Source: a virus
Length of the DNA: 37,702 nucleotides
Direction: 5' to 3' (one strand)
Virus record (IMG/VR): IMGVR_UViG_3300042470_000423
Span: 1-37,702 of that record
Both the position numbers and the translations under genes were made by a program. Positions 12,069-37,702 of this stretch are shown here, in pieces (position 1 is the stretch's first letter; the number at the start of each line of letters is the position of its first letter). The notes beneath the pieces were generated by a model, which was given only the letters and a program-made list of their open reading frames with translations, was not told the DNA's origin and did not search any database.

Positions 12069-12076
12069 TATAAATA
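12069..12076 (+). promoter_or_regulatory. T4-type late promoter, 5 nt before ATG
   Basis: A perfect TATAAATA. The ATG of the following gene (12082) starts after 5 nt. In T4 the late element is centred near -10, so the predicted +1 falls on the A of the ATG. Confidence 0.75.
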
Positions 12077-12081
12077 ATTGT

Positions 12082-12915
12082 ATGCAAAATTTGCCAATCT
12101 ATTTATACGCCAATACCTTAGAAGTTACTTTAGATTTGGATGCTACTATCAGAGGGGTTAACAGAGTCATGTACCAACGCGACCTTAATATTCAAAAAGG
12201 TATTAAAAACCAAGTTCGTATTCAGTTTAAGAATAGCGACCAAAAGAAAATCAGCGTTTCATCAACACAGACCTTTGTTTTCTCCATGTATGACGCAATT
12301 AATAGAAGATTGATTTTAGAAAAACCATTGGAAATTTTAGAAACTAATACGGCTACTAGAGGATTGGCACTGTTAACTCTGACAGAAAGTGATACCATAG
12401 ATCTTCTAAAATCCAGTTACCAGTTTAGTGTAAAAATACTAGATGATGATGGTTCATACAGTCCCGCATATTCTAACACCTACTACGGCGTAAATGGTAC
12501 GGCACACATTTTAGAAGATGTATATCCCGTTCTTCAGCCCAGCGTAGATGTATCAGACTTTCAAAAAAGTTTTAATGCGGATACCAATCTTTACGAACAC
12601 AAAAGCGGTAACGTATATGCTAACGCAGAATTTAATGGAAACACAGCACTACATACTGCGGCCCTATATCTACGTAACTACAGAGGAACTGTGTTAGTAC
12701 AGGCTACATTAAGTAACAGCCCTAGCAGTTTTGGCAAATATTCCACAATTCAAACTAGAAACTATACAGGGTTTACTGGAGTTGATTATGTTAACTTTAA
12801 TGGTGTTTATACCTACGTAAGGTTCATTCACATTCCATCTACTAAACCTGGGGATCCAGATAATGATGATCCCGACTACTACGGCGCCGTTGACAAAATT
12901 CTGTACAGAAGTTAA
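12082..12915 (+). CDS. probable tail/baseplate structural protein
   Basis: A 277-residue beta-rich protein. The N-terminal half (about 15-140: LDATIRGVNRVMYQRDLNIQKG, then FKNSDQKKISVSSTQTFVFSMYD and SYQFSVKILDDDG) looks like an Ig-like or BppU-type baseplate domain. The C-terminal half looks like a second beta-sandwich (ALYLRNYRGTVLVQATLS). No Cys clusters or membrane segments. The perfect late promoter immediately upstream fits a virion protein. The exact role is unknown. Confidence 0.7.
   Translation: MQNLPIYLYANTLEVTLDLDATIRGVNRVMYQRDLNIQKGIKNQVRIQFKNSDQKKISVSSTQTFVFSMYDAINRRLILEKPLEILETNTATRGLALLTLTESDTIDLLKSSYQFSVKILDDDGSYSPAYSNTYYGVNGTAHILEDVYPVLQPSVDVSDFQKSFNADTNLYEHKSGNVYANAEFNGNTALHTAALYLRNYRGTVLVQATLSNSPSSFGKYSTIQTRNYTGFTGVDYVNFNGVYTYVRFIHIPSTKPGDPDNDDPDYYGAVDKILYRS
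12100..12107 (-). promoter_or_regulatory. T4-type late promoter (- strand)
   Basis: A perfect TATAAATA on the - strand, inside the first codons of the + gene. Its predicted start is near 12094, which leaves a 32-nt leader for the gene starting at 12062. The two late transcripts would overlap by about 12 nt. Confidence 0.65.
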
Positions 12916-12924
12916 ACTAATAGT

Positions 12925-13926
12925 GTGAACCTTATTGAATCATCACTATTAGCAGTCTTGCCTCCGAAACGTAAAAATACTCCCAGTGGATGGATCAGTT
13001 TCGATGCGCCGTGTTGTCATAACAGAGGTGAAAGCAGAGACACTAAAAAACGCGGAGGAGTATTAATTAGTCCTACCGGTGGGTTTCAATATCATTGCTT
13101 TAACTGTGGATTTAAGGCTGGGTGGTCCCAGGGCAAACTTCTCAGTACCAATACCAAGACTTTATTCAAATATCTAGGTATGCCATCTGACGATATTTCA
13201 AAATTAAACCTTTACGCCTTAAAACTCAAAGAAGATCAACCTGCCGAAGTAAAACAATTAAGTTTGGACTTAGAAGAACGAGATTTACCAGACCAGACTG
13301 TGAGTCTTACAGAGTTATTAGCAGACACAAATCCAGAACTGACAGAAATTCAACATAAATTAGTAAACTATCTAATTGATAGAGGTATGGGTATAGATTG
13401 GTATCCATGGCACTACAGTTTCAGTCCAGGTTATAATGACCGAATACTGCTGCCATTTTATTATCAAGAACGCTGTGTGGGCTATACTGGTAGAAAAATT
13501 GGACCAGGCAAACCCAAATATCTTTCAGAGGCACAACCCGGTTATGTTTTCAATATAGATAGACAGACTGATAATAAAAAATATATAATTGTAGTAGAGG
13601 GGCAATTCGACGCCATAGGTATTGACGGTGTGGCAGTAATGACAAATGAACCAAATCCTACACAGTGCCAACGCATAAACAACTTAGGCAAAGAAGTAAT
13701 CCTTGTGCCTGATAGAGATCGTCCAGGCAGTAGAATGATCACAGCAGCCTTGGAACATAATTGGTCTGTGAGCAGTCCACCGTGGCCCGACCATATCAAA
13801 GATGTAGCCGACAGTGTAAAAACGTTTGGTAGATTATACACACTACAATCTATCATACACTATAGAGAAACAGCAGAATTGAAAATAAAATTACTTAAGA
13901 AAAGACTAGAAAGCATTCATGACTAA
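12925..13926 (+). CDS. 61: DNA primase (gp61-like)
   Basis: A 333-residue DnaG-type primase, close to T4 gp61 (342 aa). The N-terminal zinc-binding motif is C30/H32 and C58-x2-C61 (YHCFNCGFKAGW). The RNA-polymerase core includes LLPFYYQERCVGYTGR. The TOPRIM motif is VVEGQFDAIG (224-232), followed by the metal motif DRDRPG (263-268). It makes RNA primers and pairs with gp41, which follows with an 8-nt overlap. The start is GTG 12925, with no strong Shine-Dalgarno visible. Confidence 0.92.
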   Translation: MNLIESSLLAVLPPKRKNTPSGWISFDAPCCHNRGESRDTKKRGGVLISPTGGFQYHCFNCGFKAGWSQGKLLSTNTKTLFKYLGMPSDDISKLNLYALKLKEDQPAEVKQLSLDLEERDLPDQTVSLTELLADTNPELTEIQHKLVNYLIDRGMGIDWYPWHYSFSPGYNDRILLPFYYQERCVGYTGRKIGPGKPKYLSEAQPGYVFNIDRQTDNKKYIIVVEGQFDAIGIDGVAVMTNEPNPTQCQRINNLGKEVILVPDRDRPGSRMITAALEHNWSVSSPPWPDHIKDVADSVKTFGRLYTLQSIIHYRETAELKIKLLKKRLESIHD

Positions 13927-15938: not shown

Positions 15939-15946
15939 TATTTAAT
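15939..15946 (-). promoter_or_regulatory. late-promoter element, 5 nt before ATG
   Basis: ATTAAATA on the - strand (6 of 8 to TATAAATA, core TAAATA intact) with 5 nt to the ATG at 15933. It lies back-to-back with the + element 3 nt away. Confidence 0.5.
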
Positions 15947-15949: not shown

Positions 15950-15957
15950 ACTAAATA
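15950..15957 (+). promoter_or_regulatory. late-promoter element, 7 nt before ATG
   Basis: ACTAAATA (6 of 8, TAAATA core intact) with 7 nt to the ATG at 15965. No Shine-Dalgarno fits between element and start. Confidence 0.5.
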
Positions 15958-17899: not shown

Positions 17900-17907
17900 T
17901 ATTTATC
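17900..17907 (-). promoter_or_regulatory. late promoter, 5 nt before ATG
   Basis: GATAAATA on the - strand (7 of 8 to TATAAATA) with 5 nt (CCTTC) to the ATG at 17894. The intervening bases carry no Shine-Dalgarno. Confidence 0.7.
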
Positions 17908-20748: not shown

Positions 20749-20777
20749 AGTATACTACCTAGCCTTGATCCTGTCAA
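20749..20777 (-). promoter_or_regulatory. sigma-70 early promoter (-)
   Basis: TTGACA, 17-nt spacer, TATACT. The -35 lies in the coding end of the gene at 20755-20967, and that gene's TAG stop touches the -10. It drives the AAA ATPase operon. Confidence 0.85.
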
Positions 20778-20967
20778 TCAAAATCTCAGCCAAATCAGTG
20801 TCCATAATCTGGTCCATTGAGTGTGCCATAATCAGTTCGTATACAACACGAGCATCGTGTCCGAAGTGTCTGAGCACGGCGTCAACGTCGGATTGGCTTT
20901 GGCATTTGTTCCACAGGGTATCTGCTATGATACGTTGGTTCTTAGTCAGTCCGTGTAGAGTAATCAC
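20755..20967 (-). CDS. small helical protein
   Basis: A 70-residue, all-helical protein (MITLHGLTKNQRIIADTLW, then SQSDVDAVLRHFG). The start is GTG 20967, overlapping the previous TGA (GTGA). The pattern ...QRIIADTLWNKCQSQSDVDAVL is HTH-like, but no family is recognised. Its stop lies between the -35 and -10 of the next promoter. Confidence 0.7.
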   Translation of the reverse strand: MITLHGLTKNQRIIADTLWNKCQSQSDVDAVLRHFGHDARVVYELIMAHSMDQIMDTDLAEILIDRIKAR

Positions 20968-21149
20968 GCTTCATCCTTCATCATAAACATGCCTAGGTTG
21001 ATCAAGCAGGCTGTGACCATCAAGGTTGATAGAACGTTAATAGCTTCGTTGATGCCAGCTTCTGGACCGAGGTTGGTAACATAACCTGAGACACCTACCA
21101 GGGTTAACATACCTACCACTACACCTGCTGTTCCTAATACTTTTCTCAT
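20964..21149 (-). CDS. small two-TM membrane protein
   Basis: A 61-residue protein with two hydrophobic segments (about 6-24 and 36-56). Start ATG 21149 was chosen because GGAG lies 8 nt upstream; the frame stays open further up but would run into the promoter at 21180-21208. Coupled by GTGA to the next gene. Confidence 0.75.
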   Translation of the reverse strand: MRKVLGTAGVVVGMLTLVGVSGYVTNLGPEAGINEAINVLSTLMVTACLINLGMFMMKDEA

Positions 21150-21179
21150 TTCTTTACTCCGTTGTTTCAGTGTAAGTGT

Positions 21180-21208
21180 ATAATAGCACAAAGAGGGGCT
21201 GCTGTCAA
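21180..21208 (-). promoter_or_regulatory. sigma-70 early promoter (-)
   Basis: TTGACA, 17-nt spacer, TGC TATTAT (extended -10). It is followed by ACACTTACAC and an ACGGAG Shine-Dalgarno shared with other units. Drives 20964-21149. Confidence 0.9.
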
Positions 21209-21220
21209 CCCCTGTTGCGT

Positions 21221-21553
21221 TTATGCTACGAATAGATCTTTGTAAAGATCCACTTCTTCGTAGATCTCAACAAGTCCAGCATGTTCTAAATGTCCTTTGA
21301 TGCTGCCAGGCGTGACATTGGTCTTAACGTATTCGGAACTAAATCCAACCGCTTGAAGGATGCCACCGTATCTTCTTTGGAATTCTTGAAAGTCCATTGT
21401 TTCACCTTGTTCGAACACTGCCTTCCATACTGCTTCTACCCTCTTCCATTTAGAGTTGGAGTGACGGTTGCCACCCATAGCAGGAAACTCTCCGTTGGCA
21501 GTCCTGGTACCTGGTTGGTTTGGAATCGTTTTGTGTTTAATCCTAACTTTCAT
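21221..21553 (-). CDS. small basic early protein
   Basis: A 110-residue protein with a basic N-terminus (MKVRIKHKTIP) and a possible winged-helix-like part (WKAVFEQGETMDFQEFQRRYGGIL, then YVKTNVTPGSIKGHLEHAGLVEIYEE). ATG 21553 has GGAG upstream. The C-terminus ends Val-Ala-stop in the sequence that precedes the next promoter, a feature shared by several units here. Confidence 0.75.
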   Translation of the reverse strand: MKVRIKHKTIPNQPGTRTANGEFPAMGGNRHSNSKWKRVEAVWKAVFEQGETMDFQEFQRRYGGILQAVGFSSEYVKTNVTPGSIKGHLEHAGLVEIYEEVDLYKDLFVA

Positions 21554-21582
21554 TTGTTTCTCCGTTGTTTCAGTGTAAGTGT

Positions 21583-21611
21583 ATAATAGCACAAATCTTG
21601 TTCAGTGTCAA
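21583..21611 (-). promoter_or_regulatory. sigma-70 early promoter (-)
   Basis: TTGACA, 17-nt spacer, TGC TATTAT. The -35 contains the TGA stop of the 52-residue gene at 21608-21766. Drives 21221-21553. Confidence 0.9.
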
Positions 21612-21766
21612 CCCCAGCGTGAGCTGATGCTCTTTAGCTCCTTGATCTCTGCGTTGATAGCAGCGATGCGCTCTTCGATTTGGGCGTTGGATTCTGGATC
21701 CAGTTCACCACGCACTTCGCAAAGGTAAACTAGTTCTTCGTAGAGGTTGTCAATAGTGTCAGTCAT
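21608..21766 (-). CDS. 52-residue coiled-coil-like protein
   Basis: The reading is MTDTIDNLYEELVYLCEVRG...RWG. It is almost wholly helical with heptad-like spacing (NAQIEERIAAINAEIKEL). AAGGAG sits 8 nt before the ATG. The stop TGA is part of the next promoter's TTGACA. The function is unknown. Confidence 0.75.
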   Translation of the reverse strand: MTDTIDNLYEELVYLCEVRGELDPESNAQIEERIAAINAEIKELKSISSRWG

Positions 21767-21767
21767 G

Positions 21768-21989
21768 TTAGGCACTCCTTAGGTTAGCCATCAGTCTATT
21801 GTGGATCATGTTCATCTCATCCTGCTCAACGTAAAAGTCCGTCTTTGGGTCGTAGTATTGACCCTCTTTGTTGTCGTAGTAGAGCACACGACCTGAGAAG
21901 TTGAATGGGCCCTCAAGTCCTTTGCGTGGGCCGTATTTGACACGCATCTCGTCCATTTGGAACTTGTCTGCTAGAACTTTGTAGCCCAT
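21768..21989 (-). CDS. small early protein
   Basis: A 73-residue protein starting MGYKVLADKFQMDEMRVKYG, with Tyr/Asp-rich strands (VLYYDNKEGQYYDPKTDFYVE). AAGGAG lies 6 nt before ATG 21989; the longer upstream frame crosses the promoter and is not used. Followed by the 52-residue gene 1 nt later. Confidence 0.75.
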   Translation of the reverse strand: MGYKVLADKFQMDEMRVKYGPRKGLEGPFNFSGRVLYYDNKEGQYYDPKTDFYVEQDEMNMIHNRLMANLRSA

Positions 21990-22019
21990 TTGCTGCTCCT
22001 TGTTGTTCAGTGTAAGTGT

Positions 22020-22048
22020 ATTATAGCAAGTATCAATACCCTTGTCAA
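22020..22048 (-). promoter_or_regulatory. sigma-70 early promoter (-)
   Basis: TTGACA, 17-nt spacer, TTGC TATAAT (fully consensus, extended). The -35 contains the TGA of the 32-residue gene at 22045. Drives 21768 and 21608. Confidence 0.9.
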
Positions 22049-22143
22049 CCGGCGGGTTTCTCAGCCCACGCACGCTCTTGGCTCTCCCGCCAAGTCTTCT
22101 CAACCCACTCTGTCATCTGTTCAGGTGTGATTGGCTTGTTCAT
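22045..22143 (-). CDS. 32-residue peptide
   Basis: MNKPITPEQMTEWVEKTWRE...PAG, one amphipathic helix. AAGGAG is 6 nt before the ATG. The stop is embedded in the following promoter's -35. An 84-residue extension in this frame lacks a Shine-Dalgarno and overlaps the upstream gene. Confidence 0.6.
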   Translation of the reverse strand: MNKPITPEQMTEWVEKTWRESQERAWAEKPAG

Positions 22144-22156
22144 AGTCTGCTCCTTA

Positions 22157-22360
22157 TCAACCAAACTGCCTGATGTCTGCTCGCCAATAGATCTCTGCCG
22201 TACCTGAGTTCCGTGTCCGAGCATAGGCCTCAGCATCTTGACGGTTGGTGAAGATTCTTGTCTCATCTGGACAGAGTCGTTGTCCCCAACCACGCTCATA
22301 CTCTGTTACAGTGACTTCGAACAAGGGACCTTGAATCATTGGACCTTTCATCTCATTCAT
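22157..22360 (-). CDS. small early protein
   Basis: A 67-residue protein: FEVTVTEYERGWGQRL strand, then FTNRQDAEAYARTRNS helix, a compact alpha/beta fold typical of phage early proteins. Both AAGGAG and GGAG precede ATG 22360. No family recognised. Confidence 0.7.
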   Translation of the reverse strand: MNEMKGPMIQGPLFEVTVTEYERGWGQRLCPDETRIFTNRQDAEAYARTRNSGTAEIYWRADIRQFG

Positions 22361-22370
22361 CTCCTGCTCC

Positions 22371-22487
22371 TTATCTAAACAACAGGCCGTATACAATACC
22401 AGACACACAGGTTAGGACGAACACTGCGGGGATGCTGTAGATGGCTAACCAAAACAGTTCATCTAACACTCTATCCAACTTGCTCAT
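22371..22487 (-). CDS. 38-residue single-TM protein
   Basis: MSKLDRVLDELFWLAIYSIPAV..., with one membrane segment (about 11-35). Preceded by AAAGGAC and the promoter at 22518-22546. It is too short for ordinary gene callers. The function is unknown. Confidence 0.65.
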   Translation of the reverse strand: MSKLDRVLDELFWLAIYSIPAVFVLTCVSGIVYGLLFR

Positions 22488-22517
22488 TGTCTTGTCCTTT
22501 TTGTTTACTGTAAGTGT

Positions 22518-22546
22518 ATAATAGCACCTTTCGGTGCTCGTGTCAA
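22518..22546 (-). promoter_or_regulatory. sigma-70 early promoter with spacer hairpin
   Basis: TTGACA, 17-nt spacer, TGC TATTAT. The spacer holds GCACC-GAAA-GGTGC (22524-22537), a 5-bp GNRA hairpin directly next to the -10. Drives 22371 and 22157. Confidence 0.9.
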
Positions 22547-22556
22547 CCTGTTGTTT

Positions 22557-22856
22557 TTATGCTACAACCACCAACTCTTTTGCCGGATAGGTGATCCTAC
22601 CGTCGAATTCGAGCTGATTACGCTCGTCCCGGGTGAGGTAGTCGTCCTCAGCCACATACCAGTCGATGATCCACTCTTGGATGTAATCGTTATCGGTCTC
22701 AACCTGCTCCCGGATGCTATCGAGTGTGGGCTGGATGTTATTGAACTCGGTGAAGTTGGGTACCACATAGGTGTCGCCTCCTTTGCACTTCCAGTGGGGA
22801 CGGATAGCAGTGCCATAGTTCTCGCGGACTTGGGTCTCAACAATGAATTTTGCCAT
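22557..22856 (-). CDS. small acidic alpha/beta protein
   Basis: A 99-residue protein: MAKFIVETQVRENYG, then the acidic helical part TLDSIREQVETDNDYIQEWIIDWYVAEDDYLT. GGAG lies upstream. The C-terminus is Val-Val-Val-Ala-stop, using the GTAGCATAA sequence shared by several early units. The function is unknown. Confidence 0.75.
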   Translation of the reverse strand: MAKFIVETQVRENYGTAIRPHWKCKGGDTYVVPNFTEFNNIQPTLDSIREQVETDNDYIQEWIIDWYVAEDDYLTRDERNQLEFDGRITYPAKELVVVA

Positions 22857-22888
22857 TTGCTCTGCTCCGTGTTGTTTACTATTTTCGT

Positions 22889-22917
22889 ATTATAGCGAAA
22901 AGAGGGAAGCCTGTCAA
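22889..22917 (-). promoter_or_regulatory. sigma-70 early promoter (-)
   Basis: TTGACA, 17-nt spacer, TATAAT. TTTTCG / CGAAAA form an inverted repeat around the -10. Drives 22557-22856. Confidence 0.9.
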
Positions 22918-22962
22918 CCTGTTGTTTTTATGCTACGGTAGGAGTGCCGGGGTCTGTGGCAT

Positions 22963-23193
22963 CTACGCCACAACATACTTTTGTAGGATGCCCACAGTGC
23001 CCGCAATAGCCATTACAACATTTGTAGCAATTAGCGCCTTGTCTCTCATCATTAGAGCAGCCGCTAGCCAAATAAGTCCTGCAATGTATAACAGTGTAGG
23101 ACCCTGTGCATAGCCTGCCTGTGTCATGTAGCCAGCGGGCACTAACAGTGCCGTCGCTGTCCATTTTAAAACGTTTAACAATTTATCGTTCAC
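22963..23193 (-). CDS. small multi-TM membrane protein
   Basis: A 76-residue protein starting at GTG 23193 (reading VNDKLLNVLKW), which overlaps the previous gene's end by 11 nt. Three hydrophobic stretches follow (about 7-22, 29-45, 52-70). The longer upstream frame runs inside the preceding gene and is a shadow. Confidence 0.65.
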   Translation of the reverse strand: MNDKLLNVLKWTATALLVPAGYMTQAGYAQGPTLLYIAGLIWLAAALMMRDKALIATNVVMAIAGTVGILQKYVVA

Positions 23194-23410
23194 CTGTAGC
23201 AATCTCTCTAGCAACTTCTCGTATAGCACGCCCAGCAGCCTCAAAAGCGTTGGTATAAGCATAGTCATCGCTTAAACTGTTAAAGCCACGCCACAAGCGC
23301 CAAATGTCTGCGTCACTGTCATAGTTTTCAACACGGATGTCGTAGGTGTTAGCAAAAGGATCCCCTATGCTTACAACACGCACAAGTCCGTAATCGTGTA
23401 TAATTCTCAT
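23183..23410 (-). CDS. small early protein
   Basis: A 75-residue protein (MRIIHDYGLVRVVSIGD, then a C-terminal helix AFEAAGRAIREVAREIATG). Starts in an ATGA overlap with the gene before it and overlaps the TM gene after it. Part of a three-gene unit. No family recognised. Confidence 0.7.
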   Translation of the reverse strand: MRIIHDYGLVRVVSIGDPFANTYDIRVENYDSDADIWRLWRGFNSLSDDYAYTNAFEAAGRAIREVAREIATGER

Positions 23411-23733
23411 ACTGCCTCCATGCTAGCAAGCTCGTCGTCCTGCATGCCTTGTTCTGTAAAGCTCACTTTAAAGCCTAGTGCTTCGCTAATAGCACGCTCA
23501 AATGCTGTGTCTGTGTAAATGTCCCATTCACTGTCGTGTCCAACATGCACTTGCACATTCACTTCGTTGTCAAATGCAGTCGTGCTAACATCTATACTGG
23601 TTACACGCACTCTGCGTCCTGCTTCGCAGCCCCATAAGCCGTCGCCAGCACACACTACAGTAAAATTGCAGTCAAATCGCACAGTAGTCATATCGTTATG
23701 CTTTTCAAAACTGCTTAGTACTAATTTTTTCAT
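23407..23733 (-). CDS. small early protein
   Basis: A 108-residue beta-rich protein (MTTVRFDCNFTVVCAGDGLWGCEAGRRVRVTSIDVSTTAF) with two Cys about ten apart. AGGAG precedes ATG 23733. It heads a three-gene unit that follows a perfect 10-bp hairpin rather than a TTGACA promoter. No family recognised. Confidence 0.7.
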   Translation of the reverse strand: MKKLVLSSFEKHNDMTTVRFDCNFTVVCAGDGLWGCEAGRRVRVTSIDVSTTAFDNEVNVQVHVGHDSEWDIYTDTAFERAISEALGFKVSFTEQGMQDDELASMEAV

Positions 23734-23754
23734 CTTCGCTCCTAATTTAAAAAG

Positions 23755-23778
23755 TATAGCACAGTTGCCTGTGCTATA
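23755..23778 (-). terminator. 10-bp hairpin with possible -10
   Basis: TATAGCACAG / CTGTGCTATA with GCAA loop on the - strand, followed by CTTTTTAAA. It may terminate the upstream gene, while the second arm (TATACT) could act as a -10. There is no TTGACA at 17 nt. Confidence 0.5.
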
Positions 23779-23789
23779 TTAACTATAAC

Positions 23790-24080
23790 TTAGCCTAATA
23801 CGCAGTTATTAATACGCAAGTAAGTGTTGCCGCCACAGCGTAAAAACGTGTTTTCTTTGCTAGTAGTAACTTTCACTTTGTTAGTATAGCCTGTAAGTGC
23901 AAGTAATGCCTGTAATTCTGTAGCAATCTCTTTTGCTTTGTGTTCGTACACAAAAAATGTAACGTTACGCAAATCATTATTTGTTACATTAATGTCTGTA
24001 TAGCTCTTGCCGTAAATGTTGTCGCCTGCAATGCTGCGCACAAGTTTACGCACAAGTTTAGTGTTAATTAGTTTTTGCAT
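23790..24080 (-). CDS. small basic early protein
   Basis: A 96-residue protein. N-terminal basic helix (MQKLINTKLVRKLVRSIAG), then beta strands (NVTFFVYEHKAKEIATELQALLALTG). AAAAGGAG lies upstream. It has its own promoter. The mix resembles a nucleic-acid-binding alpha/beta fold, but no family is recognised. Confidence 0.7.
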   Translation of the reverse strand: MQKLINTKLVRKLVRSIAGDNIYGKSYTDINVTNNDLRNVTFFVYEHKAKEIATELQALLALTGYTNKVKVTTSKENTFLRCGGNTYLRINNCVLG

Positions 24081-24108
24081 GTTAGCTCCTTTTTGCTAGT
24101 GTAAGTGT

Positions 24109-24137
24109 ATAATAGCACAAATTGTGCAGTGTGTCAA
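24109..24137 (-). promoter_or_regulatory. sigma-70 early promoter (-)
   Basis: TTGACA, 17-nt spacer, TGC TATTAT. The spacer ends in the palindrome GCACAATTTGTGC. Drives 23790-24080. Confidence 0.9.
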
Positions 24138-24144
24138 CCTGTTG

Positions 24145-24321
24145 TTATTTTGCCACAGTGCTTGTCTCTACGCTAAAAGCTTCTGTTGCGTAAACGTCAC
24201 AGCCGTATTCTGCTTGCATCTCTGCTATAACATTTAGTGCAGCTTTGCGTGTGGCATAAGTGCCATAGTGCTCTCTCTCGTTGCTGTCGTTATAAAAAAA
24301 CAAATTATATACTTTTTGCAT
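24145..24321 (-). CDS. small early protein
   Basis: A 58-residue protein (MQKVYNLFFYNDSNEREHYGTYATRKAALNVIAEM), an alpha/beta mini-fold. AGAGAGAG purine run before ATG 24321. The end Thr-Val-Ala-Lys-stop lies in the shared pre-promoter sequence where other genes end Val-Ala-stop. Confidence 0.7.
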   Translation of the reverse strand: MQKVYNLFFYNDSNEREHYGTYATRKAALNVIAEMQAEYGCDVYATEAFSVETSTVAK

Positions 24322-24354
24322 TTGTTGCTCTCTCTTTGTTGTTACAGTAAAAGC

Positions 24355-24383: not shown

Positions 24384-24432
24384 CTGTGGCTCTTTTACAA
24401 CGTGGCTAAAAAACAACGGCCTTGACGCAGAC

Positions 24433-25301: not shown

Positions 25302-25319
25302 AAGTCCCCCTGAGGCAGA

Positions 25320-25778
25320 TTAGAACGGTGCGTCTTCAATGTCCTTCAATTGTGCTTCAACTTCTGCACGAGTAACAGTGCTCTTCGGAGCACTAGGCTT
25401 GACACCTAACGGAGTCATACCTTCAAGAGCAGGCACTTGCGGAGTGACCTTAGCCTTCTTAGCAGCAACCTTAGCCTCAATGGCTTTCATCGTGGGCTCT
25501 GCTTTTACCTTAGCGGGCTTGTCTGCTCTCTTGTCTACTTCAGCAAGGATAGCCTCATGCACAGCATGATTGGTAACACCGTCGCGGGTGGCAAAGTCAA
25601 TGCTGAGCAAGTAGGCAATGACATCTTCTTTGGTCATTGGGTGGGGCAACTCGAGAATGTCGATATCAGTATGACCATTCTTGATCAGCACCTTAGTGCG
25701 CAGTGCATCATTAGCAAAGCGAACCTTGAACTCACCGTTGAGCTTAGAAACACCAGCATGTGAAAAAGTCTTAGACAT
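25320..25778 (-). CDS. conserved-type early protein, unknown function
   Basis: A 152-residue protein. The N-terminal globular part is MSKTFSHAGVSKLNGEFKVRFANDALRTKVLIKNGHTDIDILELPHPMTKEDVIAYLLSIDF. Then comes a Lys/Ala/Pro-rich linker and an acidic C-terminus (VEAQLKDIEDAPF). AGGAG lies upstream. The linker suggests a two-part protein that binds a partner by its tail. I recall similar proteins in marine T4-like phages but no function. Confidence 0.75.
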   Translation of the reverse strand: MSKTFSHAGVSKLNGEFKVRFANDALRTKVLIKNGHTDIDILELPHPMTKEDVIAYLLSIDFATRDGVTNHAVHEAILAEVDKRADKPAKVKAEPTMKAIEAKVAAKKAKVTPQVPALEGMTPLGVKPSAPKSTVTRAEVEAQLKDIEDAPF

Positions 25779-25837
25779 TTTAAATCTCCTTTACGTGTGT
25801 ATGAATGTCTGTATGTGAATTAATTTACCACTCTATT

Positions 25838-25866
25838 AGTATACTTTGGATTTGGATAGTTGTCAA
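25838..25866 (-). promoter_or_regulatory. sigma-70 early promoter (-)
   Basis: TTGACA, 17-nt spacer, TATACT. The -35 contains the TGA of the 59-residue gene. A 50-60 nt leader with repeated ACATAC/ACATTCATAC motifs follows. Drives 25320. Confidence 0.85.
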
Positions 25867-26042
25867 CCGATATCTTCCTCCATTTCAATCTGTTGTAGAT
25901 CTGCCACACCGAACTTTCTGTCTGCTTCTGCTTGAGCATCACTGTAATATACAGCATCTAACTGCTCAAAGGAACCATCGCTGAACATGGCACTCCAGTA
26001 TGAGGGAGCATCTTCTACCACTGTGACAAGATAGCGCTTCAT
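25863..26042 (-). CDS. 59-residue early protein
   Basis: The reading is MKRYLVTVVEDAPSYWSAMF...EDIG. A small alpha/beta protein with an acidic end. It starts in an ATGA overlap with the gene before it, and its stop lies inside the next promoter's -35. Unknown function. Confidence 0.7.
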   Translation of the reverse strand: MKRYLVTVVEDAPSYWSAMFSDGSFEQLDAVYYSDAQAEADRKFGVADLQQIEMEEDIG

Positions 26043-26449
26043 GCTGCCACCTCTACCTTACAGAACTTGGCAAACTCTGCCCAAGAGCCTTCAAACAAGG
26101 CGGCATTGACTCCAGGATTGAATATGCTGCCTGGACCCAGCACCTTAACCCTATCCTTGTACACATGGTACTCGTAGTCCTGACCACAGTCAGTAGAAGT
26201 CACCGAGTGAATGTAAAAGCCTCCTACGGTCTCTTTGAAGTGTGCTACAAGACTGGCAGCAAGACAACCCATACCGTTAGCAATGTCATTACTCTCTTTC
26301 CCAAAGCCATTGACCAATTTCTTACCTGCGAGGAACTCTGCTAGTTCTGAGCCGTGTCCGCCTTCAATGTATCCGTCATACTGACGATAGAGGTTGAGCA
26401 AGGGCTGGTTGTCTGCGTCATAGACAAAAGTAAGTGATCTAGTTCCCAT
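26039..26449 (-). CDS. MGTRSLTF-type conserved phage protein
   Basis: A 136-residue protein with the conserved start MGTRSLTFVYDADNQPLLNLYRQYDGYIEGGHGSELAEFL, then a Cys-containing middle and VYKDRVKVLG strands. I have seen this N-terminal pattern in many phage and some bacterial small proteins of unknown function. GGAG precedes the ATG by a few nt. The mRNA leader is long and contains a 7-bp stem. Confidence 0.75.
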   Translation of the reverse strand: MGTRSLTFVYDADNQPLLNLYRQYDGYIEGGHGSELAEFLAGKKLVNGFGKESNDIANGMGCLAASLVAHFKETVGGFYIHSVTSTDCGQDYEYHVYKDRVKVLGPGSIFNPGVNAALFEGSWAEFAKFCKVEVAA

Positions 26450-26475
26450 TACATTCTCCTTAGTTGAGTAATTCC

Positions 26476-26517
26476 GCAGGGGTCATCTGCATACGCAATT
26501 TGTCTGTTCGCCCCTGC
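26476..26517 (-). promoter_or_regulatory. stem in the 5' leader
   Basis: GCAGGGG / CCCCTGC (7 bp, 28-nt loop) inside the leader of the MGTRSLTF gene, about 27 nt before the ATG. It could control translation or RNA stability; not tested. Confidence 0.4.
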
Positions 26518-26534
26518 TTCCTTACTATGTTCAT

Positions 26535-26563
26535 ATTATACTACCAATCAATACCCCTGTCAA
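26535..26563 (-). promoter_or_regulatory. sigma-70 early promoter (-)
   Basis: TTGACA, 17-nt spacer, TATAAT (both boxes perfect). Drives 26039 and 25863. Confidence 0.9.
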
Positions 26564-26576
26564 CCGTAGGGTTATT

Positions 26577-26732
26577 TCACTTGCCCTCGGGCAAGTAATC
26601 TCTCAAGTATTCTTTAGGACACTGGGCCAACAAAATCGCCAAGTCTTCAGTCTGCCCAAGTTCAAAGTCCCACTTGATCTGCTCTATAACACTTTCAATC
26701 AACTCGACCAGTTCCGTGTCCAAGTGTTCCAT
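26577..26732 (-). CDS. 51-residue helical protein
   Basis: MEHLDTELVELIESVIEQIKWDFELGQTEDLAILL...PEGK. Highly acidic and amphipathic. AGGAG lies 6 nt before the ATG. The last codons form an 8-bp palindrome (26579-26596). The function is unknown. Confidence 0.7.
   Translation of the reverse strand: MEHLDTELVELIESVIEQIKWDFELGQTEDLAILLAQCPKEYLRDYLPEGK
26579..26596 (-). terminator. palindrome over the stop codon
   Basis: ACTTGCCC / GGGCAAGT with a 2-nt core covers the last codons of the gene before the promoter at 26535. It is stem-loop shaped but lacks a U-tract. Confidence 0.4.
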
Positions 26733-26741
26733 CTCGCTCTC

Positions 26742-26984
26742 CTAATAGTCTACTCTAGTCGCACCCGTGTCTGGGCATACATCTACAAAGACCTTAGTGG
26801 TCTGCTCAATGCCCATTTCCTTGTCAAAGTATTTTACACTATAGCAGAACTGGCCCGCATTAGTAATACCTAAGAACTTGGCACTGGTAAACCTGTCGCC
26901 TCTATAGCCCGTAATCCTAATGCCCTCCGTCAAGTCTGCGGCGGTGAAGGTGCTTAAGATCTCAATGTCTTCTGCCAATACCAT
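26742..26984 (-). CDS. small beta-rich early protein
   Basis: An 80-residue protein (ILSTFTAADLTEGIRITGYRGDRFTSAKFLGI, then CYSVKYFDKEMGI) with an SH3-like or OB-like alternating strand pattern. Its start overlaps the previous stop by 1 nt (TAATG). No family recognised. Confidence 0.7.
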   Translation of the reverse strand: MVLAEDIEILSTFTAADLTEGIRITGYRGDRFTSAKFLGITNAGQFCYSVKYFDKEMGIEQTTKVFVDVCPDTGATRVDY

Positions 26985-27136
26985 TATGCCATCTCCGTAT
27001 AAAGGTTAGTACGCTGCCACTTCCAAAGGTCTGTTATACTATTAAACACAGGGCCAATGAACTCTACAAGTTCTCCCTCAGCATTTACGCTAGCAGTGAC
27101 CCATCCACCTACTACACTCCAACACGCATATTTCAT
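26984..27136 (-). CDS. 50-residue protein
   Basis: MKYACWSVVGGWVTASVNAEGELVEFIGPVFNSITDLWKW..., with several Trp and two or three short strands. AAGGAG precedes ATG 27136. It overlaps the next gene by 1 nt. Confidence 0.65.
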   Translation of the reverse strand: MKYACWSVVGGWVTASVNAEGELVEFIGPVFNSITDLWKWQRTNLYTEMA

Positions 27137-27166
27137 TCATCGCTCCTTGTTATTCACTATACCCAC

Positions 27167-27195
27167 ATTATAGCAAGTTTTGGAACCCTAGTCAA
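27167..27195 (-). promoter_or_regulatory. sigma-70 early promoter (-)
   Basis: TTGACT, 17-nt spacer, TTGC TATAAT. Preceded by ACCCTAAGG, a variant seen before several other -35 boxes. Drives 26984, 26742 and probably 26577. Confidence 0.85.
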
Positions 27196-27223
27196 CCTTA
27201 GGGTCTTTGTTGCGTTATTACAA

Positions 27224-27475
27224 CTACCGGTAGCGGCTGGTGCGTTCTTGCTCGTAGCAGTCGGGCTCAATGCCTGCTTCTTCACCTGCTACAAGTTCGT
27301 CGCTCATGTTAAGGAAACTTTCGCAGGCATTGAATAGTTCTTCAAAACTCTCACGCTCTGAACGCGACAGGTCGTGTAGGAACATAGGGCCCTCTTCCCG
27401 CATAGCATTGAGGATTTGGTGCATAGCAAGTAAAGTGTTCTCGCACATACAGTATGACATATTGGGTCCGCGCAT
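27224..27475 (-). CDS. small helical protein
   Basis: An 83-residue protein (MRGPNMSYCMCENTLLAMHQILNAMREEG, then EEAGIEPDCYEQER). CMC and later Cys might bind metal. AAGGAG precedes ATG 27475; a longer frame runs into the promoter. Confidence 0.7.
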   Translation of the reverse strand: MRGPNMSYCMCENTLLAMHQILNAMREEGPMFLHDLSRSERESFEELFNACESFLNMSDELVAGEEAGIEPDCYEQERTSRYR

Positions 27476-27507
27476 TTGTTTGCTCCTTGTTGTGTTAGTG
27501 TAAGTGT

Positions 27508-27536
27508 ATAATAGCACAAATCTCAGTGCGTGTCAA
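27508..27536 (-). promoter_or_regulatory. sigma-70 early promoter inside a gene end
   Basis: TTGACA, 17-nt spacer, TGC TATTAT. The -35 and part of the spacer encode the C-terminal Val-Asp-Thr-His-stop of the SWIM-domain gene. Drives 27224. Confidence 0.9.
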
Positions 27537-27867
27537 CCTGTTGTTGTTCTGCCACATGCCTACAAGCGCCCCTGTATGTATAGCCAGGGCAGGAGCAGGA
27601 CCAAGATCCGTTGTTTTTCTGCAACGTATAGACTTGACCTTTGCTTCCTTCTACTGTCCGCACATTGGGATCCAGTTTAGGCACTCCGCCCTCCAAGTCC
27701 ACAAAGGTCCTACCTCTTCTATCAAATGCTATAGGTTTCTTAAACCGTTGTAGTATTTTAGAACCCACGGGCACATAGCCAATCATGTTATTGAGATTGT
27801 CATCGCAGACATAGACATGATTGGGAGTAGCACCCTCCCACTTTGTAGTTTCTATGACAATCCTCAC
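27523..27867 (-). CDS. SWIM zinc-finger protein
   Basis: A 114-residue protein. The C-terminal SWSCSCPGYTYRGACRHV has the SWIM pattern CxC...CxH (C91, C93, C102, H104). SWIM domains bind DNA or proteins. The N-terminal 80 residues look like a compact beta domain with a basic patch. It starts in an ATGA overlap with the gene before it. Its end runs past the point where the homologous pre-promoter sequence of sister genes has a stop. Confidence 0.8.
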   Translation of the reverse strand: MRIVIETTKWEGATPNHVYVCDDNLNNMIGYVPVGSKILQRFKKPIAFDRRGRTFVDLEGGVPKLDPNVRTVEGSKGQVYTLQKNNGSWSCSCPGYTYRGACRHVAEQQQVDTH

Positions 27868-28109
27868 GCTATGACCTGCTCACGCTGTTTCTTAAGAGCC
27901 TGCTCTTCCTGCCGCTGTGTAGCACGGATGAAGTCATTGATCAAGCCCTTTTGATATCGCTTGGGCGTATACCTCAACATCTCAACCACAGTGCTCTCAA
28001 GATAGCCTGCGGCATAGGAGTGATTGCCATAGTTGTTGAGACTGGCATCGTTGAACGCCTTGAGAACAATCTTCATCGTGTCCTGATTCTCTGTAGTCCA
28101 CATTCCCAT
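27864..28109 (-). CDS. small helical basic protein
   Basis: An 81-residue protein with a helical middle (YAAGYLESTVVEMLRYTPKRYQKGLINDFIRATQRQEEQALKKQREQV). Coiled-coil-like basic C-terminus. GGAG 8 nt before the ATG. Coupled (ATGA) to the SWIM gene. Unknown function. Confidence 0.7.
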   Translation of the reverse strand: MGMWTTENQDTMKIVLKAFNDASLNNYGNHSYAAGYLESTVVEMLRYTPKRYQKGLINDFIRATQRQEEQALKKQREQVIA

Positions 28110-28139
28110 CTAGTGCTCCTTGTTTGCTAGTGTCTGTGT

Positions 28140-28168
28140 AGTATAGCACCTTTCGGTGCCCTTGTCAA
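28140..28168 (-). promoter_or_regulatory. sigma-70 early promoter with spacer hairpin
   Basis: TTGACA, 17-nt spacer, TGC TATACT. The spacer holds the same GCACC-GAAA-GGTGC hairpin (28146-28159) as the promoter at 22518. The -35 contains the TGA of gene 28165. Drives 27864 and 27523. Confidence 0.9.
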
Positions 28169-28422
28169 CCTAGTAGGCATTTTACAACAATGCCAGGACC
28201 TCTGTCAAACCTATTGTAGGGATTGCCCCGTGTTACTGTGACATTGTCTTTGCCTGCTGCCTTTTGTAGGGCGCGAAGCAGGACTCCGTTGTTGTCAAAG
28301 TAGCATTTGACACGACGCAGAGAGCCTGTATAGGACCTATGGGGCACGGGCTTGTCTGTCCAAATATCTGCACCAGTTGTATGCTTGCGGATGATTTTAC
28401 GAACTTCGGTAGTGGTTAACAT
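28165..28422 (-). CDS. small basic early protein
   Basis: An 85-residue protein (MLTTTEVRKIIRKHTTGADIW, then GSLRRVKCYFDNNGVLLRALQKAAG and PYNRFDRGPGIVVKCLLG). Basic, alpha/beta; may bind nucleic acid. GGAG upstream. Ends Gly-TGA within the next promoter's -35. Confidence 0.7.
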   Translation of the reverse strand: MLTTTEVRKIIRKHTTGADIWTDKPVPHRSYTGSLRRVKCYFDNNGVLLRALQKAAGKDNVTVTRGNPYNRFDRGPGIVVKCLLG

Positions 28423-28453
28423 TTATGTCGCTCCTTTTGTTTAGTGTGTATAC

Positions 28454-28482
28454 AGTATAGCAAATATCAATAACCCTGTCAA
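28454..28482 (-). promoter_or_regulatory. sigma-70 early promoter (-)
   Basis: TTGACA, 17-nt spacer (GGGTTATTGATATTTGC, the same as at 29957), TATACT. The -35 contains the TGA of the 34-residue gene. Drives 28165. Confidence 0.9.
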
Positions 28483-28583
28483 CCTTTGGGTTTCTTAGGT
28501 CCCCACTGTGGCAGATTAGCAACATCCGGCACTCTGCCCTTCTGTAGTATATGCGCCACAGTCCACTCTAATACTTTATTCAT
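28479..28583 (-). CDS. 34-residue peptide
   Basis: MNKVLEWTVAHILQKGRVPD...KPKG. One amphipathic helix and a basic end. AAGGAG 6 nt before the ATG. The stop lies inside the next promoter's -35. Confidence 0.6.
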   Translation of the reverse strand: MNKVLEWTVAHILQKGRVPDVANLPQWGPKKPKG

Positions 28584-28593
28584 ACTCTGCTCC

Positions 28594-29139
28594 TTAGTCA
28601 GTATGGGGACCGATGTTACGGATCCGCTCTAGTTCATCAATCAAATCGTCGTCATCTGTGGGTTCATCTCTATATGAGTCCCACTCTGCCATACGATCGG
28701 TGATAGCATAAAAGTCATCTAGTTCTGCTCCTACGATAGTCCTAATCTCATCTATGTCGGCATTAGCATATTCTCTATAATCATCATCAAACTCATCCTC
28801 GTTGCCTGTAACCTTGCCACAGAAAGCCATACCGGGCTCATCATAGAAAGCCTCTACTTCATAACCCGCCGCACAAAGCGCCTCATATACAGCAACGGGA
28901 GGAGCCCAAGCACTATCAAACATGAAAACAGCGGTATTACGATCCGCTCTACCAACTTCACCTTCTACCTCCCATTTCGTGCCCCAGTTAGAGACACAGA
29001 AGTCATAGTTCCACTCACCATTGGGCAAGGGCACAAAAGTCTCACAGAACTTACCGTCATTGAAGGCTAATACAGCAAGATCAATTTTGCGTGGATCTTT
29101 ATGCTTCAAAGTCAAGTGATTTGAAACCCAGTTAGGCAT
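28594..29139 (-). CDS. DUF1281-like protein (YubB-type ferredoxin-like N-domain)
   Basis: A 181-residue protein. MPNWVSNHLTLKH and the strand-helix arrangement to about residue 110 (VSNWGTKWEVEGEVGR, then VFMFDSAWAPPVAVYEALCAAGYEVEAFYDEPGMAFCGKV) match the DUF1281/YubB ferredoxin-like domain. Phages and plasmids carry this family; its function is unknown. The acidic C-terminus (DEIRTIVGAELDDFYAITDRM, then PTDDDDLIDEL) is additional. AGGAG precedes ATG; its Shine-Dalgarno overlaps the previous stop. Confidence 0.8.
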   Translation of the reverse strand: MPNWVSNHLTLKHKDPRKIDLAVLAFNDGKFCETFVPLPNGEWNYDFCVSNWGTKWEVEGEVGRADRNTAVFMFDSAWAPPVAVYEALCAAGYEVEAFYDEPGMAFCGKVTGNEDEFDDDYREYANADIDEIRTIVGAELDDFYAITDRMAEWDSYRDEPTDDDDLIDELERIRNIGPHTD

Positions 29140-29148
29140 CGTATGCTC

Positions 29149-29337
29149 CTATTCGTCGTTGAGTTCGAGCTGCTCGTCGTACCAATTGTCGTTGATCTGA
29201 TCTTGATAGTTCTCCATGAGTTCACCGCAGGCAATGTCTACCCAGTCCAGAGGCACTCTGTGCTTGTTAGCAATCTGCTGGAAAGTGAGCAGACCCCGCT
29301 CAATGTCCTCTTGTATACCGATAATTACATCTCTCAT
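29149..29337 (-). CDS. small HTH-like protein
   Basis: A 62-residue helical protein: IERGLLTFQQIANKHRVPLDWVDIACGEL resembles a helix-turn-helix (QQIANKHRVPLDWVDI). Acidic C-terminus. AAGGAG precedes the ATG. Possible regulator, moderate support. Confidence 0.65.
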   Translation of the reverse strand: MRDVIIGIQEDIERGLLTFQQIANKHRVPLDWVDIACGELMENYQDQINDNWYDEQLELNDE

Positions 29338-29368
29338 CTATCGCTCCTTAGTGTTTCAGTGTGTTCAC

Positions 29369-29397
29369 ATTATAGCAACTATCAATACCTGAGTCAA
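29369..29397 (-). promoter_or_regulatory. sigma-70 early promoter (-)
   Basis: TTGACT, 17-nt spacer, TTGC TATAAT. Drives 29149 and 28594, and perhaps 28479. Confidence 0.85.
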
Positions 29398-29408
29398 GCG
29401 TAGGGTCT

Positions 29409-29672
29409 TTACATGCTCCAGTATGCTTCTGAACTAGGACTAGCGGCAAAGTGAGTGTCAAATCGCTCCTCATACTCCGCACCCGTCATCAAGTTCCGTC
29501 GCTTTACCATAGTCTTGTGTATCTCATAACGATAACCCTTCTTGCTGGCGAAAGTGTATCGCATGGTGCTGTCTAAGCCCTCCAAGTCATTGGTGTCAAA
29601 GTCCTCTTTGAAGACCATGCGCTCTCCTACTCGAGTCCTAGCGTCCTTCTTGTAAGCGATTACAGTCAACAT
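29409..29672 (-). CDS. small basic early protein
   Basis: An 87-residue protein (MLTVIAYKKDARTRVGERMVFKEDF, then YRYEIHKTMVKRRNLMTGAEYEERFDTHF). Beta-rich, basic middle. AAGGAG upstream. Unknown function. Confidence 0.7.
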   Translation of the reverse strand: MLTVIAYKKDARTRVGERMVFKEDFDTNDLEGLDSTMRYTFASKKGYRYEIHKTMVKRRNLMTGAEYEERFDTHFAASPSSEAYWSM

Positions 29673-29682
29673 AGTCTACTCC

Positions 29683-29925
29683 TTAGCAGTCTGGATCAAA
29701 GTCGTGCCACTCTTGTGCCTCATCGGGCTGACCATCTTCATCCTCATCGTTATCAAGCCAGGTAATATAGTCATTACGGCGAGCAAAATCCGCTACTTCA
29801 CTCTCACTCAGGTAGCCCAACAAGTCCCTAATTAAGGTGTCCTTGTCGATCATGCCGTCCTCTACAAGGCTTATGAGTTCGCAGGTGTATCTGCGGCTGC
29901 GATAACTATCATGTTGTGTCCACAT
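29683..29925 (-). CDS. small acidic early protein
   Basis: An 80-residue protein: helical N-half (CELISLVEDGMIDKDTLIRDLLGYLSESEVADFARRNDY), then an acidic tail (DNDEDEDGQPDEAQEWHDFDPDC). The charge suggests DNA mimicry or binding to a basic host protein, which is inference. AAGGAG precedes ATG. Confidence 0.7.
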   Translation of the reverse strand: MWTQHDSYRSRRYTCELISLVEDGMIDKDTLIRDLLGYLSESEVADFARRNDYITWLDNDEDEDGQPDEAQEWHDFDPDC

Positions 29926-29956
29926 ATGTCGCTCCTTAGTGTTTCAGTGTAAGCAC

Positions 29957-29985
29957 ATTATAGCAAATATCAATAACCCAGTCAA
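29957..29985 (-). promoter_or_regulatory. sigma-70 early promoter (-)
   Basis: TTGACT, 17-nt spacer, TTGC TATAAT. A GGGC-GAAA-GCCC hairpin (29992-30003) lies just upstream of the -35. Drives 29683 and 29409. Confidence 0.85.
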
Positions 29986-29991
29986 GTGAAA

Positions 29992-30003
29992 GGGCTTTCG
30001 CCC
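29992..30003 (-). terminator. GNRA hairpin upstream of a promoter
   Basis: GGGC-GAAA-GCCC followed by TTTCAC, placed between the stop at 30010 and the next -35. Terminator-plus-promoter arrangement. Confidence 0.55.
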
Positions 30004-30009
30004 CCTCCC

Positions 30010-30345
30010 TCAGTCCATTCTGCTGTTAGCGTAGGCCTTAACGCCCAGATGCTCTGTGAGGAACTTGGCCGCGGCCTCGGCAGCCGCCTCAGCGATGTTA
30101 AGGCTTTGGCAGTTAGTATAACGACTTGCACTCATCTCAAGCCCACCGCCATATGCCTTGCGGAACCCTGCCTTAAGCAGAGCCTTGCCCATCTTAGTGC
30201 TACCTTTCTCGTAGACAGTGATGCGAGCGAACCCGCAACAATCCCTGTCCCCATACTTAGCAAAGGCGTCTTGTGCGGCCTTACGGGCGACATCGTGCAT
30301 AACAGAAACAGCAAGCTCTACAGTGTTAAGGGTGTCTTTGCTCAT
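30010..30345 (-). CDS. early protein of unknown function
   Basis: A 111-residue protein: helix MSKDTLNTVELAVSVMHDVARKAAQDAF, then GDRDCCGFARITVYEKGSTKMGKALLKAGFRKAYGGGLEMSASRYTNCQSLNIAEAAAEAAAKFL. Three Cys (C47, C48 and a later one). Start ATG 30345 by AAAAGGAG. The alternation of Gly-rich loop and helices suggests a binding fold, no family known. Confidence 0.75.
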   Translation of the reverse strand: MSKDTLNTVELAVSVMHDVARKAAQDAFAKYGDRDCCGFARITVYEKGSTKMGKALLKAGFRKAYGGGLEMSASRYTNCQSLNIAEAAAEAAAKFLTEHLGVKAYANSRMD

Positions 30346-30374
30346 TTGTTGCTCCTTTTGTTTAGTGTGTAGAC

Positions 30375-30403
30375 AGTATAGCAAATACCTAATTCCCAGT
30401 CAA
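30375..30403 (-). promoter_or_regulatory. sigma-70 early promoter (-)
   Basis: TTGACT, 17-nt spacer, TTGC TATACT. The -35 contains the TGA of gene 30400. Drives 30010. Confidence 0.85.
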
Positions 30404-32163: not shown

Positions 32164-32171
32164 AGTAAATA
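32164..32171 (+). promoter_or_regulatory. weak late-like element
   Basis: AGTAAATA, 8 nt before the ATG at 32180 of the GT2 gene. TAAATA core intact. Confidence 0.35.
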
Positions 32172-36591: not shown

Positions 36592-36596
36592 AAAAT

Positions 36597-36604
36597 TATT
36601 TAAC
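36597..36604 (-). promoter_or_regulatory. late-promoter element, 5 nt before ATG
   Basis: GTTAAATA on the - strand (TAAATA core) with 5 nt (ATTTT) to ATG 36591. It overlaps the 5' end of an alternative frame start at 36615. Confidence 0.5.
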
Positions 36605-36617
36605 AATTCTAACATAA

Positions 36618-36625
36618 GATAATTA
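36618..36625 (+). promoter_or_regulatory. possible late element, 5 nt before ATG
   Basis: GATAATTA (2 mismatches to TATAAATA, one in the core) with 5 nt to ATG 36631. Weak alone; the exact 5-nt spacing matches the other sites. Confidence 0.35.
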
Positions 36626-36630
36626 AGATT

Positions 36631-37702
36631 ATGAATGAAATTACCCTAGTGGATCAGGAACTAGTTAAGCAGATACAGTGGACAGGCGACAGCAAACAAT
36701 ATGATCTAGAACTACAGAGTTTAGGGCCCAAGCATGAGCCTTTCATAATTATGAATCCCTGGGTCAGTGACAGTAGACCTTTTTATTTTATAGAAGATTT
36801 TCCTGACACCAGACAGTGTGTGGTGTGGACCTATGAAGGCGAATGGATAGCAAAGATGTTCCCTGTAGGTTGGACTCCTGACAAACAGTACCTTAGTATA
36901 GAGATCGTCTTACCCAGAATGAAATGGGTAAGGAATCCTAATCTCAGTAAACACTATAACTTTCGAGGCACAGAATATAAGCAGGAATTCTTGTTAGATG
37001 CCTGGCAGAGTAAAAACGAACTGGTATGGTATTTAGATCCTGAAGTTAGTCCTATTAGGGAAAAGGTCTGGGCCTTTAAATTAATGCCTGTGGGCAGAGA
37101 ACCTGTTGGTATAATAGACATGGGCCTAGTTATGCCTAGATTACCCCGTGTGCTAGATGTAATTTTTATCAGTTACCAAGAGCCTAACTGTGAAGAAAAT
37201 TGGCAGCGTGTTTTAGAGAAAGCACCATATGCCAAACGTGTTCATGGAGTCACAGGTATATTCGAAGCACATAAGGCCGCTGCCTACCTCGCAGATACTG
37301 ATATGTTTTATGTGGTAGATGGAGATGCTTGGTTAGTAGACGATTGGCGGTTTAATTTCAAAGCCGAACTGTTTGATAGAAATATTACCTATGTATGGAG
37401 ATCCCGCAATCCTTTCAATGATCTAGATTATGGATATGGTGGCGTGAAATTGTTTAATAAACAGAAATTATTGCGCACCAAACAGTGGACTACCATAGAC
37501 CTAACTACGACTATTACTAAACATCTCAAAGTAATAGATAGATATAGTGTGGAGACTAGATTTAACACAGACAGTTTCGCCACATGGCGCAGTGCCTTTA
37601 GAGAAGGCTGTAAACTTTGTCTACTAAATGATCAGATGAGGTTAGATCAGTGGGTGACCAAGCCCAAGGTCAAATACAGCGCAGACGCTCGTCGGGGTAT
37701 AA
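36631..37702 (+). CDS. GT-A-like glycosyltransferase-related protein, 3' cut
   Basis: 357 residues are seen and the frame is open at the window end. The N-terminal half (about 1-170) is beta-rich and lacks motifs. From about 175 (VLDVIFISYQEP) a GT-A-like domain begins, with ADTDMFYVVDGDAWLVDDW (221-239) holding a DxD-type VDGD. The remainder is aromatic- and Arg-rich. It is probably a large phage glycosyltransferase of the type seen in marine T4-like genomes. Divergent from the GT9-like gene. Confidence 0.7.
   Translation, partial: MNEITLVDQELVKQIQWTGDSKQYDLELQSLGPKHEPFIIMNPWVSDSRPFYFIEDFPDTRQCVVWTYEGEWIAKMFPVGWTPDKQYLSIEIVLPRMKWVRNPNLSKHYNFRGTEYKQEFLLDAWQSKNELVWYLDPEVSPIREKVWAFKLMPVGREPVGIIDMGLVMPRLPRVLDVIFISYQEPNCEENWQRVLEKAPYAKRVHGVTGIFEAHKAAAYLADTDMFYVVDGDAWLVDDWRFNFKAELFDRNITYVWRSRNPFNDLDYGYGGVKLFNKQKLLRTKQWTTIDLTTTITKHLKVIDRYSVETRFNTDSFATWRSAFREGCKLCLLNDQMRLDQWVTKPKVKYSADARRGI

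Follow-up and report, generated by a model that had tools for sequence, protein, structure and literature searches.

Late promoters of the T4 type abut start codons in a clade of T4-related jumbo phages, predicting leaderless late mRNAs

In the Thermus phage phiYS40, middle and late transcripts are reportedly leaderless, as mapped by primer extension, and a shift in translation mode, associated with increased IF2 and decreased IF3, is said to have been proposed for this phage. Phage AR9 has leaders of 26 to 491 nt, and in T4 the late promoter element occupies positions -13 to -6 (PMC1524935). Here, we analyzed a 37,702-nt virus record (the window), a fragment of a T4-related phage genome in which SSB, UvsX, UvsY, a UvsW-like helicase, a primase, and a DnaB-like helicase are recognizable. 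Its UvsX is nearest to those of the jumbo phages Phosso, Vibrio 2.275.O, and Atu_ph07 (63 to 68% identity), and a megablast search of positions 12000 to 22000 against phage records returned no match.

A sequence-only reading of the window had placed T4-type late elements exactly 5 nt before the ATG of five genes and 7 nt before a sixth. The octamers at 12082+, 15933-, 17894-, and 36591- are present as described and solid (Table 1), and so is the gap of 7 at 15965+. An additional element precedes ATG 32180, whose product begins MISVIIPTL and is glycosyltransferase-like; it had been overlooked. The fifth proposed site, before 36631+, did not hold: GATAATTA-N5 is there, but TAATTA at -11 is not enriched in related phages (3 versus 1.4 in the background), which leaves this site unsupported. 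If 36631 were real, it would form with 36591 another back-to-back pair of leaderless genes, an arrangement with start codons 26 to 56 nt apart that we found 14 times in the relatives and the window (e.g., 15933-15965). ATG 36591 is internal to a longer ORF, the first ATG of which, 36615, has neither a TAAATA element nor a Shine-Dalgarno (SD) sequence upstream. Position 36591 is therefore probably the true start codon of this gene, for which close homologues are absent. Overall, TAAATA occurs 21 times in the window. Four of these copies have a gap of exactly 5 to an ATG that opens at least 60 codons (0.07 expected, P = 9e-7), and six have a gap of 4 to 8 (0.35 expected, P = 2e-6). Because the motif was picked after inspection, these P values are only indicative, and the relatives serve as the independent test.

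Table 1. Late elements, associated features, and early promoters in the window
Feature	Position	Strand	Remarks
Late element TATAAATA	12069..12076	+	Gap 5 to ATG 12082, virion structural gene 12082-12915
Virion structural gene, phrog_14467, predicted leaderless	12082..12915	+	Based on orthologue spacing and PA5oct homologue
Opposite-strand late element TATAAATA	12100..12107	-	Leadered, gap 37, gene 11679-12062; inside 12082 coding region
Late element ATTAAATA	15939..15946	-	Gap 5 to ATG 15933, AlgH-like DUF179 gene
Late element ACTAAATA, core CTAAATA-N7	15950..15957	+	Gap 7 to ATG 15965
Late element GATAAATA	17900..17907	-	Gap 5 to ATG 17894
Sigma70-type early promoter run, TTGAC-N17-TATAAT-like	20749..30403	-	Mostly 29-34 nt before ATG
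Late element AGTAAATA	32164..32171	+	Gap 8 to ATG 32180
Late element GTTAAATA	36597..36604	-	Gap 5 to ATG 36591, an in-frame internal ATG of ORF 35821-36615
GATAATTA, weak and unsupported	36618..36625	+	Gap 5 to ATG 36631

The spacing scan in related phages suggested by the sequence-only reading was run on 80 loci fetched by UvsX plus the whole records of many of them (125 sequences, 1.71 Mb, many of them partial contigs). Gaps between NATAAATA and an ATG heading an ORF of at least 60 codons were counted after removal of duplicates. Among the 311 deduplicated copies, gaps of 4, 5, 6, 7, and 8 nt were found at 13, 65, 8, 20, and 3 sites, respectively, that is, at 109 ATG starts with a mode of 5. 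No site had a gap of 9 to 11, 4 had a gap of 12 to 14, and 89 had a gap of 15 to 34. We refer to gaps of 4 to 8 as the near class and to the distant sites as the far class. The near class comprises 35% of the NATAAATA copies, while permutations of the seven letters reach at most 4%, except for a shifted copy (14%). The same element emerged from a motif-free ranking, since TAAATA at -11 was the top position-specific 6-mer upstream of 1251 ORF starts (92 versus 3.65 in the background), above the SD 6-mers. Similarly, when the 12082 protein was used to fetch another 80 loci and the 12082 gene itself was excluded from the scan, 85 sites were found at gaps of 4 to 8 and none at 9 to 20. In a 353-kb relative (G021), NATAAATA stands at gaps of 4 to 7 at 22 sites, at 8 to 13 at none, and at 14 to 38 at 24. 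The late element of the clade is a TATAAATA-like octamer with a TAAATA core and relaxed first two bases. A second variant, TAAGTA, is enriched at -11 in the relatives (14 versus 0.7), indicating that the core accepts G at its fourth base. In the profiled region upstream of the element, which lies downstream of -35, T-richness at -15 to -19 was all that was seen.

Given the position of the element in T4, a gap of 5 would make the A of the ATG the +1 nucleotide, in agreement with the earlier proposal. Transcription usually initiates at a -1 pyrimidine/+1 purine step, and 94 of the 95 sites with TAAATA at -11 have a pyrimidine immediately upstream of the ATG, compared to 54% of other ORFs. At a gap of 7, A-Y-Y usually precedes the ATG, so that the RNA could start at the ATG or 3 nt upstream; at sites with gaps of 4, 7, or 8, the choice of start site would have to be somewhat flexible. 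We infer from the geometry of the promoters and from the -1Y/+1A initiator that the RNA 5' end lies at or within a few nucleotides of the AUG. The absence of an SD, also claimed from the window, was confirmed in the relatives: affinity for the anti-SD upstream of near-class ATGs is at the level of shuffled DNA, whereas far-class leaders bind the anti-SD strongly. Furthermore, starts at gaps of 4 to 8 in the relatives head 110 ORFs with ATG, 3 with TTG, and none with GTG. The empty zone in the predicted leaders of the clade resembles that in Lactococcus cremoris, where none of the measured leaders is 4 to 14 nt long (PMC10986495).

We consider it very likely that in one widespread clade of T4-related jumbo phages, T4-type late promoters are placed such that +1 coincides with the A of the AUG or lies within 0 to 3 nt of it, and that the resulting leaderless late mRNAs are translated via their 5'-terminal AUG without an SD. 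Host RNA polymerase with a phage gp55-like late sigma factor would read these promoters and start on the A of the AUG, and the 5'-terminal AUG itself would recruit the ribosome. Each late promoter of the clade would thereby exist in one of two states, leaderless (gap of 4 to 8) or SD-leadered (gap of about 14 or more).

The constant spacing to the ATG and the lack of an SD at near-class genes would also be seen if TAAATA were an SD-independent translation element on an mRNA with an ordinary leader, namely an AT-rich ribosome site of the kind suggested for Bacteroidota. This is improbable, as the identical octamer is found in the same genomes 15 to 34 nt upstream of the ATG, in front of SD-bearing leaders, and as it equals the gp55 element in a clade that encodes gp55. 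Moreover, the -1 position is occupied by a pyrimidine, as at an RNA start, rather than lying in the expected A-rich context, and other genes use AAGGAG.

Placement of late promoters on start codons is conserved gene by gene. TAAATA lies at a gap of 4 to 8 in all 58 distinct orthologues of the 12082 virion gene, and the protein is conserved from the first Met. The DUF179-like 15933 gene has a gap of 5 to 8 in 43 of 48 distinct orthologues, the 15965 gene keeps its gap of 7 in 31 of 42, and a distant homologue of the 17894 gene (in L272) likewise has a gap of 5. Even in the distant Pseudomonas phage PA5oct, ATAAATA-N5-ATG precedes the homologue of the 12082 gene, the product of which is marked in the PA5oct record as found by mass spectrometry. 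Judged by conserved N termini and kept spacing, the near-class start codons are real. This bears on the possibility that the promoters are genuine but the true start codon lies downstream, with an ordinary SD leader hidden inside the called ORF. Starts were called mechanically, and the 36591/36615 case shows that miscalls can occur; protein conservation from the first Met onward in 58 orthologues and the fact that 65 of 68 gap-5 ATGs in the relatives open an ORF of 60 or more codons nevertheless make this explanation highly improbable. Chance juxtaposition in AT-rich DNA, to which the few sites of the window alone and the choice of motif after inspection might have pointed, has next to no probability left, being refuted by the relatives (motif-free k-mer ranking, permuted motifs, independent locus set) and by the lack of the pattern in the AT-richer phages T4 and PA5oct.

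The start of the 12082 gene has further features. Positions 12062 to 12107 hold head-on overlapping late promoters, with a conserved minus-strand TATAAATA inside codons 7 to 9 of the 12082 gene, and the predicted RNA 5' ends of the pair would be complementary over about 13 nt. In the relatives, this minus-strand family is mostly found at gaps of at least 35. The wobble bases of codons 5 to 8 of the 12082 gene are nearly frozen. A downstream ribosome signal was considered for this conservation and rejected, since the opposite-strand promoter explains it better and other leaderless families lack it. A-rich or CA-rich codons after the AUG were likewise rejected as a leaderless signature, since they are the same in leadered genes.

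In a UvsX tree, the carriers fall in one clade (support 98/95) beside Phosso, Vibrio 2.275.O, and Atu_ph07. Within this clade, the near class is scarce or missing in two contigs (G013 and G016), which may reflect their short length. A gp55 homologue is encoded in 12 of 13 large clade contigs; no gp55 gene was detected in the window fragment. T4 and Syn9 have no near-class sites, and the examined part of P-SSM2 has a single weak one. Neither Phosso nor Vibrio 2.275.O nor Atu_ph07 has a gap-5 site, and PA5oct has two.

Late elements precede late (virion and packaging) genes, including those for terminase, tail, adaptor, and virion proteins. Near-class genes belong to 82 families, 29 of which have at least two near-class members. 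The terminase large subunit is near-class in 21 of 21 cases, and a head-tail adaptor, a tail-tube-like protein, several virion proteins, and a nucleotidyltransferase are other examples. The tail sheath and main tail tube (with SD leaders) and very long proteins of 2000+ amino acids are leadered. The families phrog_14467, phrog_14802, and Ad2 adaptor occur in either state, depending on the phage, indicating that the state changes in evolution, with no intermediate leaders seen; the few counts at gaps of 9 to 10 in these families are second hexamer copies in TAAATAAATA.

These data bear on the idea of a switch in translation mode between early and late infection. Early genes of the window do have sigma70-type promoters; their leaders are about 24 nt long and nearly all carry AAGGAG-like sites, so that the early/late contrast seen there stands locally. 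Across whole genomes, SD leaders are retained at about half of the late promoters, including those of the tail sheath and main tail tube, and leadered sites in G021 are about as numerous as near sites, which argues against a wholesale switch. Leaderless late mRNAs by promoter placement are thus well supported across the clade by spacing, SD absence, AUG-only starts, the -1 pyrimidine, and conservation, but for only about half of its late promoters.

A likely consequence would concern timing. Lacking an SD, near-class genes should stay silent on RNA arriving from upstream, and their translation would be tied to the late promoter. Read-through RNA from early promoters would then yield no product of these genes, whose translation would depend solely on their own late transcripts. 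Such read-through is plausible, as the predicted leaderless 12082 gene lies directly before the primase and helicase genes. In T4, a hairpin over the ribosome site of gene e solves the same timing problem (PMC3014915). Gene orientation was tried as a test of the timing role, and no difference was found. The primase (GTG start) and DnaB-like helicase genes (12925 to 15370), directly after the virion gene, lack a clear SD; they may be translationally coupled, or their starts may be misplaced. On the other side of the virion gene, positions 11119 to 11688 encode a 189-amino-acid protein kept near the same place in G021, whose sole match is the small PHROG phrog_11778, labelled DNA polymerase.

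IF3 disfavors leaderless initiation in E. coli (review PMC9031893), which makes its distribution an attractive lead. IF3 is encoded by Phosso, Vibrio 2.275.O, Atu_ph07, and RaK2 (records W01, W02, W03, and W05), and no IF3 gene was found in the 32 clade-side records (G000 to G031), including ones of 323, 353, and 364 kb. This absence is only a lead, because it represents one event on the tree and because the leadered phages T4 and PA5oct have no IF3 gene either. It is conceivable, though rather unlikely, that an IF3 gene once carried by the clade was lost and many late promoters were shifted onto start codons, and that altered late initiation (less IF3, 70S initiation) gives leaderless late mRNAs an advantage over the SD mRNAs of the host and of early phage genes, amounting to a phage-built translation switch. 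A phage initiator tRNA was rejected as a partner, as a C1-A72 initiator-like tRNA-Met is encoded by G021 but also by the leadered Atu_ph07 and PA5oct, and not in the window; bS21 was rejected as a distinguishing factor because it is found in both groups. The tRNA-Met of G021 (L527:4455-4530) is initiator-like in having C1-A72 but lacks the three G-C pairs of the anticodon stem, and G021 encodes 32 tRNAs covering all 20 amino acids.

The arrangement is of interest because a lytic phage lineage appears to have fused a whole promoter class to start codons, with two-state leader lengths visible from sequence alone. Both the avoidance of 4- to 14-nt leaders and the purpose of leaderless initiation become testable in one genome, with leaderless and SD-bearing late genes as built-in controls and with phrog_14802 and the Ad2 adaptor switching state between relatives. 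Furthermore, gene starts can be corrected, and a promoter-plus-start model is available for annotating many uncultured jumbo phages.

Compared to known systems, the clade shares with T4 (gp55/gp33/gp45) the TATAAATA-type element, a gp55 homologue, and virion genes downstream. T4 late sites, however, lie at least 12 nt before the ATG, with none at 4 to 8, whereas about half of those in the clade abut the start codon. By UvsX, the nearest known relatives are Phosso, Atu_ph07, Vibrio 2.275.O, RaK2, and PA5oct, in which the near class is absent or rare; in the first three, most late motifs are about 17 to 38 nt before the ATG. Lambda cI and bacterial leaderless mRNAs resemble the predicted transcripts in having a 5'-terminal AUG and no SD, but they represent single or host genes, while here one promoter class of lytic phages is fused to start codons (PMC9031893). 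A search of the literature found no paper linking leaderless mRNA to T4-type late promoters. Phage phiYS40 is unrelated and uses host sigma-type promoters, in contrast to the T4-type late promoters of the clade, which are known from sequence only. A shift like that of phiYS40 calls for most late transcripts to be leaderless, and the clade departs from this, with only about half of its gene-linked NATAAATA sites in the near class. Overall, leaderless late phage mRNA was already known, and its clade-wide, two-state version on T4-type late promoters appears to be new.
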